From assembly GCA_002729725.1 (NCBI GenBank), contig PBYS01000054.1, forward strand, positions 1 to 64,000: 64,000 bases of DNA, in the 5' to 3' direction. This document shows positions 33,817-64,000 of the stretch, one piece after another; the stretch's first letter is position 1; every line of letters starts with the position of its first letter. The DNA comes from Puniceicoccaceae bacterium (GTDB lineage Bacteria > Verrucomicrobiota > Verrucomicrobiia > Opitutales > Coraliomargaritaceae). A program made the position numbers and the translations under genes. The notes below the pieces were generated by a model. The model had not been told where the DNA came from and searched no databases. It worked only from the letters and a program-made list of their open reading frames with translations.

Positions 33817-34515
33817 ATGACACAGTCTAAAACACAATCCGATTCCGCGAGCCCACGCTGGTTCGCCCTTATCAACGACCAGGTGATTACTGCCCCACGG
33901 CAGGAATTACCTGTTTCTCTTCTCAAGACGTTATCCTCTATCCCAGATAATCATTCGTTAATCCGGGATCACAAAAGCCCGAATGATCACATTCTCAAAG
34001 ATGATGGGATCGTAGACCTCTCACTCGGAAACGTATTTTACTCCCGTCCGAGCTGCGACTGTCGGCCTTCGAATCCGTGCTCGACTCCGCCAAAACGGGC
34101 ATTTTCGGTCGATGATAGTTTTGAAATCTCAGCAGTGGAGAAACTCTCCAGAGCAGCCTTCTTCTCACTATTCGACCTCTCTGAGGCTTCAAGCTTGTAT
34201 CGGGATTTCGAATCGCCGGATGACCGGAAGATTTGGCCTGATGATGAAATTCATTTTATCGACGGACCGGTATTCTACACAAAAGCCGCCTGTCCTCAGG
34301 ACGATGTCACTATAACGATAGACGGCAAGGAATACCCGATCAAGTCTGGCCAGAGCACCGTGAAGGCGATTAAGGACATGGCTTCTGTTAAACACGGAGA
34401 CGAACTCGTTCAGATTATCAACGGCGACATCACACCATTGGAAGACGGCGGCTCCGTATGCATTGAGGGCGGAGAAGTGTTTGTAAGCCATCCCAGACAA
34501 GGAGGATCCTCTTGA
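33817..34515 (+). CDS. Multiubiquitin protein: three tandem beta-grasp (ubiquitin-like) domains
   Basis: A 232-residue protein made of three related units: about 14-77 (WFALINDQVITAPRQEL to GNVFYSR), 94-156 (FSVDDSFEISAVEKL to GPVFYTK) and 163-226 (VTITIDGKEYPIKSG to GGEVFVSH). The third has the DGKEY start and GGEVF end of the 'multiubiquitin' family; each unit has a final (V)F-(Y/V)-(S/T) strand. The C-terminus is PRQGGSS: a Gly-Gly pair followed by two residues, as in pro-forms that a peptidase must trim before activation. A linker with Cys80, Cys82 and Cys88 separates units 1 and 2. It overlaps the E2, JAMM and E1 genes that follow, so it is very probably the modifier they process and conjugate. 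Confidence 0.88.
   Translation: MTQSKTQSDSASPRWFALINDQVITAPRQELPVSLLKTLSSIPDNHSLIRDHKSPNDHILKDDGIVDLSLGNVFYSRPSCDCRPSNPCSTPPKRAFSVDDSFEISAVEKLSRAAFFSLFDLSEASSLYRDFESPDDRKIWPDDEIHFIDGPVFYTKAACPQDDVTITIDGKEYPIKSGQSTVKAIKDMASVKHGDELVQIINGDITPLEDGGSVCIEGGEVFVSHPRQGGSS
34501..34506 (+). promoter_or_regulatory. Shine-Dalgarno GGAGGA that selects a TTG start
   Basis: GGAGGA inside the last codons of the multiubiquitin gene (it also encodes the Gly-Gly) lies five bases before TTG at 34512-34514. That TTG overlaps the multiubiquitin stop as TTGA, so the E2 start is set by this site and coupled to termination of the modifier gene. Confidence 0.7.
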
Positions 34516-34853
34516 TTGAGTTCCCTCAAGATCAGATAGCGGAGCTCAAAGCTTTGGTAACCGAGGTCTCGACGGCCACTGAGGGAGGTTTTACCTACTT
34601 CTATCTTCCAAAACTCAGATTGCCTACCGGTTGCATCAGTGAACATGCCGATGCGCTTCTATGCCCTATGCCACGGGACGGTTACGAGTCACGAATGTAT
34701 TTCAGCGAAATCGTCAAACCTCAAGGGTTGAACTGGCATCAAAAGGACATTCGTATTCTTGACCGATCTTGGTTCGCCTTCTCTTGGAAAACAAACCGGA
34801 GCGATATCCGCCTGGCTCAAATGGTCATGGAGTACTTGAGGGCATTTAAATGA
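34512..34853 (+). CDS. E2-like ubiquitin-conjugating enzyme, Prok-E2_E type
   Basis: A 113-residue protein starting at TTG. It has the signature of prokaryotic E2 family E: LRLPTGC (Cys41), ADALLCPMPRDGYESRMYF (Cys51), W-H, then SWFAFSWKTN and a closing helix LAQMVMEYLRAF. Family members are predicted to accept an activated ubiquitin-like protein from the E1 as a thioester. Cys41 or Cys51 would be the active site; which one cannot be told from sequence. It is short compared with eukaryotic E2s (about 150). It sits between modifier and JAMM genes and overlaps both. Confidence 0.85.
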   Translation: MIEFPQDQIAELKALVTEVSTATEGGFTYFYLPKLRLPTGCISEHADALLCPMPRDGYESRMYFSEIVKPQGLNWHQKDIRILDRSWFAFSWKTNRSDIRLAQMVMEYLRAFK

Positions 34854-35350
34854 ACGTGCAAATTCGAGTTCACCAGAATCTATACGAAGAGGCATTCCGA
34901 GATCTGCGTCGCCCACATCCCTTTGCTTATGAGCGGGTCGGGTTCTTATCTAGTTCCACGGTTCAAATAGACCCCGAACATGTCCTTGTCCTTCTGACGC
35001 ATTTTCACTCAATTCCAGACGACCATTACCTTGAAAATCCCGATGTCGGCGCTTGCATTGGCACAGAAGCTATCCGCGCTGCGATGCAGAGGTCGATTGC
35101 ACTCCAGGCTGGCCAGATACATACGCATATCCACGAACATTGGGGGCAGCCACATCCTAGCTCCGATGATCTGGAGGGAGTGCCTCCAATCAATCGTTCA
35201 CTCTCTCTGACGTCTCCAAACCAAACTTCAGGATATCTGATTCTGAGTCATAACTCTGCTTGGGCAGAGCTTAATGTTGCCAAATCCGGCCTTATAACTA
35301 GAGCCGATAAGTTTACAGTTGTTGGCTTCCCATTGCGATTTCTACAATGA
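34850..35350 (+). CDS. JAMM/MPN+ peptidase (deubiquitinase-like), locus A
   Basis: A 166-residue protein with all JAMM residues: Glu28 (FAYERVGFL), His91 and His93 (QIHTHIHEHWG), and Ser104 and Asp107 (HPSSDDLEG). The spacing between the second His and the Ser is slightly longer than usual. JAMM enzymes are zinc proteases that cut isopeptide bonds or trim pro-ubiquitins. Here the likely tasks are removal of the terminal Ser-Ser of the multiubiquitin to expose Gly-Gly, separation of units, and deconjugation. Start codon overlaps the E2 stop (ATGA) and its stop overlaps the E1 start. Confidence 0.88.
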   Translation: MNVQIRVHQNLYEEAFRDLRRPHPFAYERVGFLSSSTVQIDPEHVLVLLTHFHSIPDDHYLENPDVGACIGTEAIRAAMQRSIALQAGQIHTHIHEHWGQPHPSSDDLEGVPPINRSLSLTSPNQTSGYLILSHNSAWAELNVAKSGLITRADKFTVVGFPLRFLQ

Positions 35351-36165
35351 AAACGAATAAAGCAGATGACGCATTCTCTCGCCAGTCTTTTCTGGGCGTG
35401 AACTCACAATCCATCATTGAACGAACCGTGGTCGGCATAGTTGGTTTGGGTGGTGGTGGCTCTCATATCGCCCAACAGCTCGCTCACCTGGGATTCTTGA
35501 ACTACGTAATTTACGACGGTGACCTATTCGAAGAAAGCAACCTGAATCGCCTCGTGGGAGCGACCGAAGAAGATATTAAGAACAAAAAACCTAAGATTGA
35601 TATTGCCCGGCGACTCATCTCAAGGATACGCCCCCACGCGAAAATTCATGCAACAATGAGCAAGTGGCAAACGTCTCCTGGTCGGCTCAAAAGTTGTGAT
35701 ATTATTTTTGGTTGTGTCGATGGATTCGATCAACGCAGACAACTTGAAGCAATGGCTCGCCGATACCTAATACCACTAATTGACATCGGCATGGATGTCC
35801 ACCAGCCGGAAGAAGGCTCGCCGACTATTTCAGGCCAGGTCATTCTTTCCATGCCCGGACACTCTTGCATGCAGTGTATGGGATTCCTAAACGAAAACAA
35901 TTTGGCCAAGGAGGCTGGAAATTATGGCGATGCTGGCATCAATCCACAGGTAGTGTGGTCGAATGGCCTTCTTGCCTCTGCAGCAGTCGGTCTAGCTGTT
36001 GATCTTATCACTGATTGGTCTAAATCTTTAAGGAGTCCAATTTATCTTTCTTACCGAGGGGATTCTCCAACATTGACTGAAGACCCAATATTCGCTTATT
36101 CTAAAAAAGTATGTAAGCACTATCCACTAAAGGAAATCGGTGCTCCAACTTTCACCAAACTATAA
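35347..36165 (+). CDS. E1-like ThiF-family activating enzyme, locus A
   Basis: A 272-residue protein. The Rossmann nucleotide loop is VGLGGGGSH (about 32-40); the acidic strand IYDGDLFEESNLNR (55-68) carries the Asn-x-x-Arg conserved in E1/MoeB/ThiF; GCVDGFDQRRQ (122-132) is the adenylate-binding Asp region. One CxxC (C174, C177) is present; the usual second CxxC is not seen, only Cys256, so zinc binding may be incomplete. No clear catalytic Cys lies in the crossover region. The enzyme should adenylate the C-terminal Gly of the multiubiquitin. It overlaps the JAMM gene by 4 bp. Confidence 0.88.
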   Translation: MKTNKADDAFSRQSFLGVNSQSIIERTVVGIVGLGGGGSHIAQQLAHLGFLNYVIYDGDLFEESNLNRLVGATEEDIKNKKPKIDIARRLISRIRPHAKIHATMSKWQTSPGRLKSCDIIFGCVDGFDQRRQLEAMARRYLIPLIDIGMDVHQPEEGSPTISGQVILSMPGHSCMQCMGFLNENNLAKEAGNYGDAGINPQVVWSNGLLASAAVGLAVDLITDWSKSLRSPIYLSYRGDSPTLTEDPIFAYSKKVCKHYPLKEIGAPTFTKL

Positions 36166-40621: not shown

Positions 40622-41911
40622 GTGCCGATAATCGACTATAAAAAAGCTGCAAATAAGACTGAAGTTAAACTACTGAATGATCCGACCATCTCGGAACAAA
40701 ACAAACGATTATTGAAGCGATTTCTCTCAGGATATGATGTGAAGGATTCACGTCGTATGACTTTTCTAAAACATATTCGGAAGTTGCTCCTCGCATTTCC
40801 GGATGCAGAGAAAGCAGTCATGGATCGGGATGGACTGAACGACTTTTTCTATGGCCTGCGTGTGAATTACAGACCGGCGACCTGCGCAACCTACATAAAT
40901 ATCGTTGGCCGATTTCTACGATGGCTTAACAATGGTGAAAAGCCGCCGGGCATGCGGGATGTTAAAGCAAAGCCGAAAGCAGAGCTACTCCGGGATTTAA
41001 AACCGGAAGATATGGTTACCTGGGATGAGATGCTCAGAATCGCAGAAACCAGTTGCAGTCTTCAATTTGCAGCGATCATATTGACTCAACTGGATGCGGG
41101 GTTCCGTCCGGGCGAACATCATGACCTCAACTATGGAGATGTTGTTCGGCATGAGCGAATGGCTGTCATTCATGTCCGGCAAGGGAAGACCGGAAAACGA
41201 TCGGTCGTTTTACTGCGTTGCATCCCGGCACTTTTCAAATGGTTGGATGCACACCCGACAAAACGTCTGGAAGATCCACTCTGGATTCTGGAGAAAGCAA
41301 CCTATACTGATGTCAATAACGGGCGACAAGTTAAGCGATACTCATACCCGGCGATGTCTAAACGATTGCGGGAACTCGCAAAAAAATCAGGTATCCACAA
41401 ACCGATGGACTTTTACAATCTTCGGCATAGCTCATGTGTTTTAGATAAGCGGGACAATGTTCCGGTTGATCTGGCAGCAGATCGGCACGGTCATAGTTCA
41501 AAATTCTATCTGGAGGTCTATGGTCGTTTAAGTATTGAGGACACAATGCAGCGGTTCGAGTCGCATTATGGAATCTCAACTCAAACGCAAAAATCAGAAT
41601 CCATCAGCCATCGACAGTGCCATGCCTGTCGCGCAATCAACGAACATGAAAAGAACTGGTGTGGTTCATGTGGCTGCGCTCTAAATGTTCAGGCAAATAT
41701 CGAAATCGCCGACTCACTACAGCTGACATCTACAAAAGATTCGAGTGATGGCAGCGACGAGCTACAATCATTAAGACATGAGTTGAATAAGGCGAAAAAG
41801 CGGGAGAAGTCTTTCAGGTTGGAACAGCTTCAATTACTGGAAGAGATGAAAGACATTCAGCGTCAAATCGCCCAGGAGAAAGCCATCTTAATGCAGCCTC
41901 CCACCTATTGA
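40622..41911 (+). CDS. Tyrosine recombinase/integrase with C-terminal zinc ribbon
   Basis: A 429-residue protein beginning at GTG 40622, preceded by GAGGTGAAG. A SAM-like N-terminal domain (about 25-120) is followed by the catalytic domain with Arg162 (AGFRPGEHHDL), Lys189-region QGKTGKRSVVL, Arg268-His269 (FYNLRHSS), His291 (DRHGHSS) and the nucleophile Tyr300 (YLEVYGR). After it comes a treble-clef/zinc-ribbon with Cys333, Cys336, Cys347 and Cys350, and a coiled-coil tail. The ribbon after the catalytic domain is a feature of many archaeal Xer-like integrases, less usual in bacteria. It should integrate or excise the element or resolve its dimers. Confidence 0.9.
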   Translation: MPIIDYKKAANKTEVKLLNDPTISEQNKRLLKRFLSGYDVKDSRRMTFLKHIRKLLLAFPDAEKAVMDRDGLNDFFYGLRVNYRPATCATYINIVGRFLRWLNNGEKPPGMRDVKAKPKAELLRDLKPEDMVTWDEMLRIAETSCSLQFAAIILTQLDAGFRPGEHHDLNYGDVVRHERMAVIHVRQGKTGKRSVVLLRCIPALFKWLDAHPTKRLEDPLWILEKATYTDVNNGRQVKRYSYPAMSKRLRELAKKSGIHKPMDFYNLRHSSCVLDKRDNVPVDLAADRHGHSSKFYLEVYGRLSIEDTMQRFESHYGISTQTQKSESISHRQCHACRAINEHEKNWCGSCGCALNVQANIEIADSLQLTSTKDSSDGSDELQSLRHELNKAKKREKSFRLEQLQLLEEMKDIQRQIAQEKAILMQPPTY

Positions 41912-59966: not shown

Positions 59967-60143
59967 ATGCAAGTTACTTCTAATAAACCAATCCAACTGA
60001 TCAACGTCTCCGACCGCACTCCCTCAACCAATCTAGTCCCCGTGGCTAGCCCTGGAAAAACCGGCTGGCACTCTAAGTCCTCCCCCTCCCAAACTAGTAT
60101 CATACGCCACACGGCTCAGCCAGAAAGCCGTAAGGAATTCTAA
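59967..60143 (+). CDS. Possible small protein before locus B
   Basis: A 58-residue open frame, MQVTSNKPIQLINVSDRTPS, then TNLVPVASPGKTGWHSKSSP, ending QPESRKEF, five bases before the JAMM start, with an AAGGA ribosome-like site for that gene inside its end. It is low in hydrophobic residues and looks disordered. It may be a small component of locus B or a chance frame. It is too short and polar for a beta-grasp modifier. The region 59805-59966 before it holds no gene. Confidence 0.35.
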   Translation: MQVTSNKPIQLINVSDRTPSTNLVPVASPGKTGWHSKSSPSQTSIIRHTAQPESRKEF

Positions 60144-60148
60144 ATCGA

Positions 60149-61114
60149 ATGACATTAACCAGCCCCTCAAACTTACGTATCATGAAACAACCAGGACTCA
60201 TCTCACTCGTCGCGTTTAACAAAGAGATAAAAAAAATCGCTGAAAGCGCGGCCAGCAGCCCCGACAAAGAAATCGGCGGTTGGCTCTTCGGATTCTACAC
60301 ACAGGGCAGTATTCCAGTCATCATGCATGCCTCGTTAGCGTCGGAAAATTCGCTACGCACACCCACGAACTTCCAGGAAACAGTTCAACATCTGGAAGGA
60401 AGTGCTAGACTCATCTACGAAAGCTATCGATTCGGAGTAATCGGGCGCTGGCACAGCCACCACCACATCGGACTGACTACACCGAGCGGCGGAGATCAGC
60501 GGACTGGTAATGAGTTCGCTCGGAAGAATGACATCGAGACTTTCGTAGAAATCATCATAAACTTGGAGGGTTCCAAAGAGTCACCAACCGTTCGGATTCA
60601 TCCTTACGCCTACCAGAACAAAAAAACCGTGGGCATGGTCTTTGAGACCATCGAGGGTGATAGTCCAATCAACGCAGCCCTCGAAGACACGATTCTTTGC
60701 CAGAATGTTATTCGTCCAAGAATTTCACTCCCTTCGGAGAACATTTTTTGGCCAGAGCATCCTAAGCCAGTGACGCCCCCGCCTGGATCACTAATTGAGT
60801 CGATTAATTCAATTCCAGAGCAGATACGTCAAAAACTCGAAGTCAGCTACGACTCTGAAATTACAACTGTAACGCTGCCAGTTTCCTTAGATCAGCGCGC
60901 CGTTATTTCGTTCGCTTACACAAACGACGATTACGTGCTGCTAGAGGCCAGCATCCGTGACACCGACAACACTACTTTTAATGCCACAGATTTCCTGGCA
61001 GGTCTCGGCACCGAACCTCTCTCCAACCTTTTCCTGATTATGTTGCACCATGCACTCATCAATCAGGAACCGCCACAACTTCAACTCACTAATGGAGGTT
61101 TCAACGATGAATGA
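60149..61114 (+). CDS. JAMM/MPN+ peptidase with C-terminal extension, locus B
   Basis: A 321-residue protein. Residues about 15-165 form the JAMM domain: Glu41 (DKEIGGWLFG), His102 and His104 (RWHSHHHIGL), Ser113 and Asp116 (TPSGGDQRT). This is a complete zinc-peptidase motif, as in deubiquitinases and pro-ubiquitin trimming enzymes. A further domain follows (about 215-320; IPEQIRQKLEVSYDSEITTV, then strands and a last helix) that I do not recognise; it could be the docking surface for the modifier or for the E2. The start ATG 60149 is supported by an AAGGA site; ATG 60182 is possible. The next gene overlaps by 8 bp. Confidence 0.88.
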   Translation: MTLTSPSNLRIMKQPGLISLVAFNKEIKKIAESAASSPDKEIGGWLFGFYTQGSIPVIMHASLASENSLRTPTNFQETVQHLEGSARLIYESYRFGVIGRWHSHHHIGLTTPSGGDQRTGNEFARKNDIETFVEIIINLEGSKESPTVRIHPYAYQNKKTVGMVFETIEGDSPINAALEDTILCQNVIRPRISLPSENIFWPEHPKPVTPPPGSLIESINSIPEQIRQKLEVSYDSEITTVTLPVSLDQRAVISFAYTNDDYVLLEASIRDTDNTTFNATDFLAGLGTEPLSNLFLIMLHHALINQEPPQLQLTNGGFNDE

Positions 61115-61550
61115 CTACACAAAGGCATATATCGATTTCAATCGGAAGCTGATCAAAGAAGAATTTCCTTGGTTTGATTACCATGAGTTCTCCGAATACG
61201 GGGCAATGTTCACCGGCGAGATCTGGGATTCCGATCGTTCAAAGAAGGCAATCCTAAGAATCGTCTGCGACAACGGGTTTCCAGACAGCAAACCGAACCT
61301 GTCCATCGCTGAACCAAAAATTCTACACCGCTTTGAAGGTTGCCCGCTCAACTTACTCGGATTGTCTCACGATTTTCACTGCCTGGAAGCCAATGAAGTC
61401 GGAGAAGTTCGCATCTGTCATACTGCCTCCTGGGACGCCTCCATCACGCTACTTGAACCCATCAGCAAAGCCTATCTCTGGTGGAACGCTTATGTGCTCC
61501 ATTTGCAAACCGGCAAATCAATCGACTCGTATTTCAACCCTGAAGATTAA
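61107..61550 (+). CDS. E2-like ubiquitin-conjugating enzyme, locus B
   Basis: A 147-residue protein from ATG 61107, with GGAGG at 61094-61098. FPDSKPNLSIAEP matches the E2 'YP-x-x-x-P' strand turn; the active-site region is GEVRICHTASWDASITL with Cys104 as the predicted catalytic Cys, followed by the helix SKAYLWWNAYVLHLQTGK. This matches the UBC fold of bacterial E2s such as those in Bil and CBASS operons (short (I/L)C-x-(H/Y)-x-x-x-W-D-x-S-x-x-L pattern). It should accept the activated modifier from the E1 downstream. Confidence 0.85.
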   Translation: MNDYTKAYIDFNRKLIKEEFPWFDYHEFSEYGAMFTGEIWDSDRSKKAILRIVCDNGFPDSKPNLSIAEPKILHRFEGCPLNLLGLSHDFHCLEANEVGEVRICHTASWDASITLLEPISKAYLWWNAYVLHLQTGKSIDSYFNPED

Positions 61551-61569
61551 ACCACAACAACACAAAACC

Positions 61570-61758
61570 ATGAGCAATAATAACGACATCGCCAACACCA
61601 TGCGGGCACTTTCACAACGGCCCCAAACACCTCCCAAGCACAGCTTGGTTCTCGATAAAGGGACTAAACGGCTCAAGGCCGTGCCGTCCGACAGCCCCTC
61701 CGCCAAAAACCAACTGGCAATCACACCCGAGGATCTTCGGGTATCACTCACAACCTAA
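61570..61758 (+). CDS. Small protein between E2 and E1 of locus B
   Basis: A 62-residue protein, MSNNNDIANTMRALSQRPQT, then PPKHSLVLDKGTKRLKAVPS and a hydrophobic end ITPEDLRVSLTT. It lies 19 bp after the E2 and 13 bp before the E1, and is the only gene between the two. It is too short for a full beta-grasp fold and has no C-terminal Gly. It may be an adaptor, or an unusual modifier. Confidence 0.5.
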   Translation: MSNNNDIANTMRALSQRPQTPPKHSLVLDKGTKRLKAVPSDSPSAKNQLAITPEDLRVSLTT

Positions 61759-61771
61759 CTCAGTAAACACT

Positions 61772-63034
61772 ATGAAACATGCACCTGTAATCGTATGCGC
61801 CGCAGAGTTGTTGGAGTCCGCCCTCAGGGCGGGCTCCCTGGTGGAGCACTCTTTCTCAGTCGTCGACGGACACGTCTACAACGGCCTAATCAGAAATCAA
61901 AGCTCTCAAATCGCCCGAGGCGTTATTTCGAGTTCGGCAACTGAAACTCCGGCAGGAGCGACTGTTCAGGTCATTGTCAGCCAAGACAGTTCGGGCAAGC
62001 TCGTTGTGAACGGAAGTGTCCGCCAAAACGGGAACTGGATCGAAAGTAAGTTGGCAATCATCCCCTTGCAGGAGCAATTGTTCTCGCGCTTTAAAGGTCT
62101 GCACGAGACCGATGATGTAGCTGATAAAACCGTCCTGATCATTGCGGCTGGCTCTGTCGGATCCTCGATTATCGATTATCTAAGCAAACTGGGGATCATG
62201 TATATTACTATCATCGATCCGGAAACCCTCGGAGTGGAAAACATCGTCCGCCATGTTGCAGGACTTGATTCTGTCGGACGCTTGAAGGTCGATTGGGCGA
62301 AGGATCATATACTCTCAAAGAACCCATATGCGAGGGTTGAAACGCACCCGATCAAAGTCGAAGCGAACACCATACCGCTTATTGAACAGCTGATTAAACA
62401 GGCCGATCTGGTAATTTGCACCATCGATAACCGGGAAGGGAAACAACTCGTGAACCGTATTGCGACGCATGCAGGCAAAACCGTCATTTACTCGGGAGCT
62501 TTTCGTCGTGCATACGGAGCCCAGGTGTTGCGCTGCGATCCAAATGATCCGGACTCTTTTTGCTATAATTGTTTCGTCCGCGCCCTGCCGGAACGAGACT
62601 TGGATCAGGAAGTTTCCGATCTCGCCCAGGCACGGGCGTTGGGAATCCACTACTCAGACCGCCCGGCACCAATTCAACCCGGACTGGGTCTTGATATTGA
62701 GCCGACGGCGTTCATGACCGCAAAACTGGCACTGCATGAATTACTAAGAGGCAAAGAGACTCCTTTAAGTTCTTTGAACGAAGATCTCGTCGCGCACTGG
62801 TATATGTGGCTTAACCGCCGCGAACCCGGCACTGACTTCGAGAATCTACAACCACTTGGTTTCGAGACCGACGACCTGCGTATTCTCCGGTGGTACGGCG
62901 TCGAATTCCATAGGGACGAGCATTGTCCCGTATGCGGCAACGGCCTACAGACCCTCATCACTCACACGGATTCGAACCAACCGGGCAATGAACATGGATC
63001 ACATTCATCGGGAGCTGGAACTTCGCTCTCCTAA
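61772..63034 (+). CDS. E1-like ThiF-family activating enzyme with N-terminal domain, locus B
   Basis: A 420-residue protein. An N-terminal domain of about 110 residues (strand-rich, SFSVVDGHVYNGLIR) precedes the Rossmann core; such E1-N domains occur in bacterial ubiquitin-like operons. The nucleotide loop is IIAAGSVGSS (123-132), the Asn-x-x-Arg pair is VENIVRHVAG (155-164), and the adenylate Asp region is ICTIDNREGK. Two CxxC pairs, C264-C267 (FCYNCF) and C385-C388 (HCPVCG), form a complete zinc site, unlike the locus A E1. A Ser/Gly-rich tail follows (GAGTSLS). It should adenylate the modifier of this locus. Confidence 0.88.
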   Translation: MKHAPVIVCAAELLESALRAGSLVEHSFSVVDGHVYNGLIRNQSSQIARGVISSSATETPAGATVQVIVSQDSSGKLVVNGSVRQNGNWIESKLAIIPLQEQLFSRFKGLHETDDVADKTVLIIAAGSVGSSIIDYLSKLGIMYITIIDPETLGVENIVRHVAGLDSVGRLKVDWAKDHILSKNPYARVETHPIKVEANTIPLIEQLIKQADLVICTIDNREGKQLVNRIATHAGKTVIYSGAFRRAYGAQVLRCDPNDPDSFCYNCFVRALPERDLDQEVSDLAQARALGIHYSDRPAPIQPGLGLDIEPTAFMTAKLALHELLRGKETPLSSLNEDLVAHWYMWLNRREPGTDFENLQPLGFETDDLRILRWYGVEFHRDEHCPVCGNGLQTLITHTDSNQPGNEHGSHSSGAGTSLS

Positions 63035-63221
63035 AATTCAAGGGGCTCCGCCCTTCTGGAACAATCGCCAGATTAATGCTCAGGCACCCCTTGGCGAAAA
63101 ACATGGCTGCTGGACAGCCTGCAATTCAGAGTGTCCGGAATGCACCTCTGGCAGTGTGTGCGAGATGCCTCAAGGACATCAGGGAGCACACCAATGCTGG
63201 ATCTGCAAAAATAAATGGTAA
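62994..63221 (+). CDS. Small Cys/His-rich zinc-binding protein, candidate E3-like factor
   Basis: A 75-residue protein from ATG 62994 (62988 also possible), overlapping the E1 end by 41 bp. The C-terminal half, HGCWTACNSECPECTSGSVC then EMPQGHQGAHQCWICKNKW, has Cys39, 43, 47, 50, 56, 68 and 71 and His37, 62 and 66: enough for two zinc ions. The G-H-Q-G-x-H-x-C-x-x-C ending is a zinc knuckle-like pattern. Bacterial RING-like treble-clef proteins occur in ubiquitin-like operons, so this could recruit the E2. The ligand order is not a standard RING, so the E3 idea is inference. Confidence 0.6.
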   Translation: MDHIHRELELRSPKIQGAPPFWNNRQINAQAPLGEKHGCWTACNSECPECTSGSVCEMPQGHQGAHQCWICKNKW

Positions 63222-63239: not shown

Positions 63240-63806
63240 ATGACAACAATCGAACAAATTAAGCGACAGCTCGCCCCCCGTGCCATGGCAGATGAGGTCA
63301 CGAATCCCCACGACGACGCGAGACTATCCTACCGAGTGGAAAGTAACACGGTTGAAGATATGGCAACGTTTCTGGTGCTTATTGGCGATTATCTCAATCA
63401 CCACTATGAACATGCCCTTGGAGCCAGCTTTCCCGAGCTTCACGCACAGGAGATGGCCAAAGAGATCATCGAGCGATCATTGAGAAGAAATGGTGGTAAC
63501 CTGATATCTGCTTATCATAACGCAAACACCGGATTAAATGGCGGCGTTCGAAAAGTTTTGGACACTATCGCCGATGACATTCGAGAAGAGGGACTTCGCA
63601 GGTATATCAACAATGTGCTCGATACCTACGTAAACCCGGTAAGCTTCGAGGAAAAGGTGGAGATCGTTCGAGAGCTAATCGCCGTCCTTCGTATCGACAC
63701 AGTGGATGCTGAAAATCCGGCTCGCTATGCTTCGGACTACAAAAGACTCACTGAAATCTACCTCGAAAATCTACGCAGAACCGAGGAAGCGTTCTTCCGC
63801 CTTTAG
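63240..63806 (+). CDS. Helical protein of locus B
   Basis: A 188-residue protein of about six helices (TVEDMATFLVLIGDYLNHHY, then MAKEIIERSLRRNGGNLISA, ending ENLRRTEEAFFRL). Its start is 18 bp after the Cys/His-rich gene and its end 2 bp before the next start, so it is part of the same operon. Alpha-helical proteins of unknown function are known neighbours of bacterial E1/E2/JAMM genes. I do not recognise a named family with certainty. Confidence 0.6.
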   Translation: MTTIEQIKRQLAPRAMADEVTNPHDDARLSYRVESNTVEDMATFLVLIGDYLNHHYEHALGASFPELHAQEMAKEIIERSLRRNGGNLISAYHNANTGLNGGVRKVLDTIADDIREEGLRRYINNVLDTYVNPVSFEEKVEIVRELIAVLRIDTVDAENPARYASDYKRLTEIYLENLRRTEEAFFRL

Positions 63807-63808
63807 TC

Positions 63809-64000
63809 ATGAGACCGACACTACACAGTTTCCTTGAAGATTTGCTCCTCTGCCATGACAAGATGCACCTCGAACTGGAGCAACGGATGCTGGCACTTCA
63901 GCGGAATTCTTGGCGCATCCGCTCAGAGGAAGAACTACTTGAGTTGCTTCACGAGGTAACTGAATTTCTTCTGACTGGGAGAACAGGCAACACGACGGCC
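63809..64000 (+). CDS. N-terminal part of a helical protein, cut by the window edge
   Basis: Open from ATG 63809 to the window end (64 codons), MRPTLHSFLEDLLLCHDKMH then LELEQRMLALQRNSWRIRSE. Predicted helical, with a Leu/Glu-rich pattern suggesting coiled coil. Its start is two bases after the preceding stop, which supports translation. Function and length unknown. Confidence 0.5.
   Translation, partial: MRPTLHSFLEDLLLCHDKMHLELEQRMLALQRNSWRIRSEEELLELLHEVTEFLLTGRTGNTTA

Follow-up and report, generated by a model that had tools for sequence, protein, structure and literature searches.

The Bil and Bub operons combine an E1, an E2 and a peptidase with a beta-grasp modifier that they also encode (BubA appears in PDB titles as well). 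Operons with E1, E2 and JAB proteins but no ubiquitin-like protein (Ubl) are a described class, types 6a–6c (PMC1779556). The best matching member for the locus studied here is type 6b, type II CBASS, in which the C-terminus of a CD-NTase stands in for ubiquitin: Cap2 attaches it to targets and Cap3 takes it off again (PMC10097602; PMC1779556). CBASS thereby provides a precedent for ubiquitin machinery able to carry a non-ubiquitin protein. Type 6a (E2–E1–JAB, with a metallo-beta-lactamase) and type 6c (E2–E1 and JAB, with a metal-binding protein) have a fused E2–E1 and other partner genes (PMC1779556).

Here we describe an operon, locus B, that we read, with a probability of roughly 55%, as a ubiquitin-free conjugation module and a split relative of the Cap2/Cap3 system of type II CBASS. 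Locus B shares with types 6a and 6c the presence of E1, E2 and JAB without a Ubl, a likeness drawn from gene content, and differs from them in the fusion and the partner genes. It resembles the Bil and Bub operons in having E1, E2 and peptidase in one operon; by contrast, no beta-grasp modifier gene is found in it.

Organization of locus B

The window (the whole stretch of DNA analysed, 64,000 nucleotides) forms the start of a 138,419-bp contig. Locus B runs along its + strand in the order JAMM peptidase, E2-like protein, 62-aa protein and E1, the last lying just beyond the interval 59967–61758 named in a preliminary description of this DNA. The features are:

59967..60143, + strand: 58-aa ORF, doubtful as a gene (borderline codon use; no family match)
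60149..61114, + strand: JAMM/JAB peptidase, 321 aa (invariant active-site residues; profile and fold matches)
61107..61550, + strand: E2-like protein, 147 aa (conserved Cys, His and Trp; weak UBC/RWD matches of its family)
61570..61758, + strand: 62-aa protein, read as a separate N-terminal segment of E1 (BLASTP and left-out profile)
61772..63034, + strand: E1-like adenylating enzyme, 420 aa (ThiF 9e-31; alignments)
62994..63221, + strand: possible 75-aa ORF, rich in Cys and His, that overlaps the end of E1 (sequence only)
63240..63806, + strand: 188-aa protein, part of the gene set after E1 (homologue at locus L029, 2e-38)
63809..64000, + strand: start of a 212-aa protein, whose stop lies at contig position 64447

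Codon use places the 58-aa ORF near the border between in-frame and off-frame windows, and neither a family match nor relatives were found for it, so that its status as a gene appears doubtful. Codon use gives no support for coding by the 75-aa ORF.

Relatives and the CBASS sister clade

A Bradyrhizobium barranii plasmid encodes, next to a JAMM and an E2, an E1 with 46% identity across 70% of the query. Exact-pattern scans with a single E1 returned nothing from genome contigs or viral contigs; with an alignment of this E1 and that of the window as query, 12 further true relatives were recovered. Candidates L037–L047 were dropped, the six that were read being ordinary MoeB-like or unrelated proteins. 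The relatives comprise a CBASS-type group of ten loci (L024, L027, L028 and L030–L036), a second group formed by the window, L025, L026 (titled Deltaproteobacteria), L029 (Phycisphaerae) and L074, and the more distant L063 and L075. Every relative read has the JAMM–E2–E1 core and none has a recognisable Ubl gene adjoining it; a modifier gene farther away could still exist in the many that lie on short contigs. The preliminary description had regarded E1, E2 and JAMM without a beta-grasp protein as incomplete. This view is not supported, because the relatives keep the same core without a Ubl and the Ubl-free class is known (PMC1779556; PMC10097602). As far as these loci were read, the absence of a modifier appears to be a property of the family and not a gap in one locus.

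In the E1 tree, nine CBASS rows form one clade (100/100 support) and five window-type rows lie across that branch from it; these five may or may not make up a clade of their own (AU test p 0.177, not rejected, with ungrouped rows and the root unresolved). Locus B lies outside the CBASS clade. Its JAMM, E2 and E1 are homologous to those of the sister clade, as is the small E1 segment.

The CBASS-group operons read are arranged JAMM–E2–E1–CD-NTase–SAVED/nuclease protein, with a TIR protein in some; PADLOC recognised the cyclase and the SAVED effector of L033, and the CD-NTase frame of L024 is interrupted. In L036 (7536–9848), E1 and CD-NTase form one continuous 770-aa frame in which the usual E1 end is absent. 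All eight sister-clade CD-NTases compared (L028 and L030–L036; for example, L033:9222–10091) end in Phe-Gly and a single further residue that varies (A, Q or V), whereas a Gly or Ala end is reported for other Cap2/Cap3 operons. That this end is trimmed to Gly is a guess from the sequences. The E2 of L026 (67–735) is extended at its C-terminus by about 70 residues, and its IFGA end resembles these FG-x ends, possibly by chance.

Locus B is thus like type II CBASS (PMC10097602; type 6b of PMC1779556) in having E1, E2 and JAB in one operon without a Ubl, and in having a sister clade linked to CD-NTases and SAVED effectors. It differs in its separate E2 and E1 genes, its separate E1 N-terminal segment, an E1 without the canonical catalytic Cys, and the lack of a CD-NTase or an effector of that type at the locus. 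No CD-NTase was found among the locus B neighbours to 76 kb, and the neighbours scanned gave no match to SAVED, TIR or any other CBASS effector; the sister-clade CD-NTase alignment, run against the window's own genome without a positive control, returned nothing. Because these searches revealed neither a CD-NTase nor an effector, we do not file locus B as CBASS.

The JAMM peptidase and the E2-like protein

The locus B JAMM protein consists of a catalytic domain (about residues 17–190) and an extension (215–305). Its Prok-JAB match (E = 2.7e-4) is below Pfam's cut-off; the PADLOC JAB model gives 4.8e-14. Residues E26, H102, H104, S113 and D116 are invariant in an alignment of 16 relatives. The predicted structure is good across the catalytic domain, and a fold search matched it to Rpn11 homologues, JAMM1 and Cap3 (Z 15.0, r.m.s.d. 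2.3 and 140 aligned residues for Cap3, which is also among the PDB profile matches). Locus B therefore has a JAB peptidase of the Cap3 type found in type II CBASS. The extension, which also occurs in the CBASS relatives and varies at its C-terminal end, is modelled as a pair of short helices, then four strands and a second pair of helices (pLDDT about 40–72). This alpha-beta4-alpha order is not that of a beta-grasp fold and, with low confidence, does not look like a Ubl; no listed match in a fold search with the whole JAMM model covered the extension.

The E2-like protein has no Pfam match of its own, and some members of its family match UQ_con/RWD (UBC/RWD) weakly. C104, H91 and W109 are invariant among 13 aligned relatives, and Cys104 is the candidate catalytic residue. 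E1 and E2 activities of the Cap2 type thus appear to be present, but as separate genes.

The E1 and its detached N-terminal segment

The E1 is recognised by the ThiF profile (9e-31), and four zinc-type Cys residues are invariant in its family. Where MoeB has its catalytic Cys, the ten aligned family members have A, P, I or R; the locus B E1 lacks the canonical catalytic Cys. The closest fold matches of the E1 model are MoeB, ThiF and UBA5, all acting on beta-grasp proteins. Cap2 is among the PDB profile and fold matches, and Citrobacter BubCD among the Foldseek matches (E 1.9e-15).

The 62-aa protein matches the N-terminus of the fused E1 of L024 (BLASTP 1e-4) and scores 25.8 bits against a profile built from eight other loci, the best of 2000 shuffles reaching 7.2. 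Its codon use is coding-like, above 99.5% of off-frame windows. The window, L025, L029 and L074 encode this small segment as an ORF of its own; in L026 and the CBASS group it forms one protein with E1. The 62-aa protein is therefore read as a split-off N-terminal segment of E1, and we rejected it as a modifier because of its homology to the N-terminus of the fused E1s; its C-terminus is not conserved among relatives. The stop codon of the 62-aa ORF and the start of E1 lie close together but are arranged differently across four loci, which favours two separately made proteins over a programmed frameshift that would join them.

We modelled the N-terminal part of the E1 on the fused L026 protein. 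The portion corresponding to the 62-aa protein is predicted as helix, hairpin and helix, after which comes a beta-rich domain containing a single short helix (pLDDT about 45–86 for the N-terminal part). With low confidence, this domain does not look like a Ubl. A fold search with the whole E1 model gave no listed match covering the N-terminal part.

Search for a modifier

The preliminary description had noted no visible modifier in locus B, and profile searches bear this out: no Ubl model of Pfam, NCBIfam or PADLOC matches the locus B proteins. It had also set aside the 58- and 62-residue proteins as too short and for want of a Gly end, correctly as to the ends, which are EF and TT, respectively. 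Its suggestion that a modifier lies past the window edge found no support in the genes after 64000. A clear ubiquitin-like gene next to that position was looked for and none was recognised, nor any in the next 12 kb, to 76 kb.

A downstream gene set with a DUF87/HerA-like ATPase

The proteins encoded after the locus B E1 are of 188, 212, 359, 166, 526, 806 and 193 aa, followed by more genes. The 526-aa protein has a weak ChlI match and the 806-aa protein a DUF87/HerA match (2e-6); PHROGs returned nothing for most of the set, and plasmid searches with the 526-aa protein and the 215-aa protein of L074 were empty. Homologues of six members lie on the L029 contig (359 aa, 1e-52; 166 aa, 3.5e-5; 526 aa, 4e-65; 188 aa, 2e-38; 806 aa, 9e-154; 193 aa, 9e-5), in an order similar but not identical to that of the window. 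A second genome of the L029 phylum (G651) has homologues of the 526-, 188-, 806- and 193-aa proteins on one short contig and its JAMM, E2 and small segment at the end of another, apart from the gene set. In genome G584 part of the set is present and E2 was not detected. A DUF87-type protein follows E1 in L026 and likewise in L029; L074 and L063 have the core, and the gene set is absent from the stretches read.

The 188- and 526-aa proteins share a domain (paralogy z 15.7). One repeated, helical-looking domain is common to four proteins, those of 188, 212 and 193 aa and, in its C-terminal part, that of 526 aa (z 7–16); it is seen at window 63240–63806, contig 63809–70644, L080 and L092, in a gene set that recurs in Planctomycetota.

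Homologues of the 188- and 526-aa proteins end in RL or TL, and those of the 806-aa protein in EF, VF or VL. The FG end that the 166-aa protein has in the window is replaced by SET in its homologue; considered as a donor for its Gly end, this protein was rejected, the Gly not being conserved. No gene-set protein compared has a conserved C-terminal Gly.

Proposed mechanism and alternatives

In the Cap2/Cap3-like reading, the E1, with its N-terminal segment supplied as the 62-aa protein, would probably adenylate a partner other than a beta-grasp protein at the partner's C-terminus. Cys104 of the E2 would accept this partner, and the E2 would then join it to a target; as the E1 lacks the usual catalytic Cys, the E2 probably takes the partner directly from the adenylate. 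The JAMM protein would cleave the resulting bond. In the CBASS relatives, the partner is expected from published CBASS work to be the CD-NTase; in the window's branch, there is no CD-NTase in the cluster and the DUF87 ATPase gene set adjoins the module. The analysis shows the gene content, the conserved active-site residues, the homology of the 62-aa protein, the link of the sister clade to CBASS and the co-occurrence with the ATPase set; from these we infer the conjugation reaction itself, as well as any role of locus B in phage defence.

This reading is supported by the shared Ubl-free core, the ten CBASS-type relatives, the active sites kept in JAMM and E2, the identification of the 62-aa protein as part of E1, and the presence of Cap2 and Cap3 among the matches of E1 and JAMM. 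Opposed to it are the lack of a donor among the proteins examined and the closest E1 fold matches, which act on beta-grasp proteins. More tentatively, the donor may be of a third kind, the C-terminus of another protein that is neither beta-grasp nor CD-NTase, working with the DUF87/HerA-like ATPase set seen in the window's lineage and in Planctomycetota; we consider this possible, short of an even chance. Placed outside the CBASS clade and with the CBASS donor absent, locus B can reveal whether other proteins took the donor role. The sister clade serves as a clear point of comparison, and the transfer chemistry is open to direct tests thanks to the separate E1 segment and the missing E1 Cys.

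The module might instead use a Ubl encoded elsewhere, which we consider unlikely. A candidate source lies in the same window: locus A (33817–36165), about 26 kb from locus B, encodes a multi-Ubl-like protein (weak Multi_ubiq (PF14452) match, E 0.038, below Pfam's cut-off), two small proteins and a ThiF-type E1 (1.4e-28). An unlinked Ubl is another candidate, and the fold matches of the locus B E1 are mainly Ubl-activating enzymes. However, locus A has its own E1, and in the close CBASS relatives the operon itself encodes a candidate partner that is not a Ubl. In seven genomes carrying locus B relatives, searches for the locus A Ubl protein detected no homologue, although such a negative is weak where a protein evolves fast.

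Donation by one of the gene-set proteins (188, 212, 359, 166, 526, 806 or 193 aa), its C-terminus used directly or after trimming by JAMM, seems decidedly unlikely. Set and core are found together in the window and L029 (on separate contigs in a third genome), the donor candidate of the CBASS relatives is the next gene, and trimming is conceivable given that the CD-NTase end is an invariant Gly plus one variable residue; yet the C-termini compared keep no Gly, and L074 and L063 have the core without the set in the stretches read.

The preliminary description had also proposed a modifier hidden within the JAMM extension or within the N-terminal domain of E1. Such a modifier, freed by cleavage, is highly improbable: the JAMM protein does end in LTNGGFNDE, with Gly-Gly four residues before the end, but this Gly-Gly is not conserved among relatives, the extension has a variable C-terminus and is shared with the CBASS relatives, and the two low-confidence models are alpha-beta4-alpha and beta-rich with one short helix.

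Other observations

At the distant relative L075 (genome G1205), E1 is followed by an ORF of 134 aa in which a short motif seems to occur twice and which has a Gly end (FFINVAG), and then by a PP2C-like ORF; against the small-protein profile, the 134-aa protein scores 4.8 bits, no better than shuffles. The locus B region is flanked by an integrase-like ORF (window 40622–41911) and a serine-recombinase-like ORF (contig 76080–77588); given these, locus B may lie within a mobile element.
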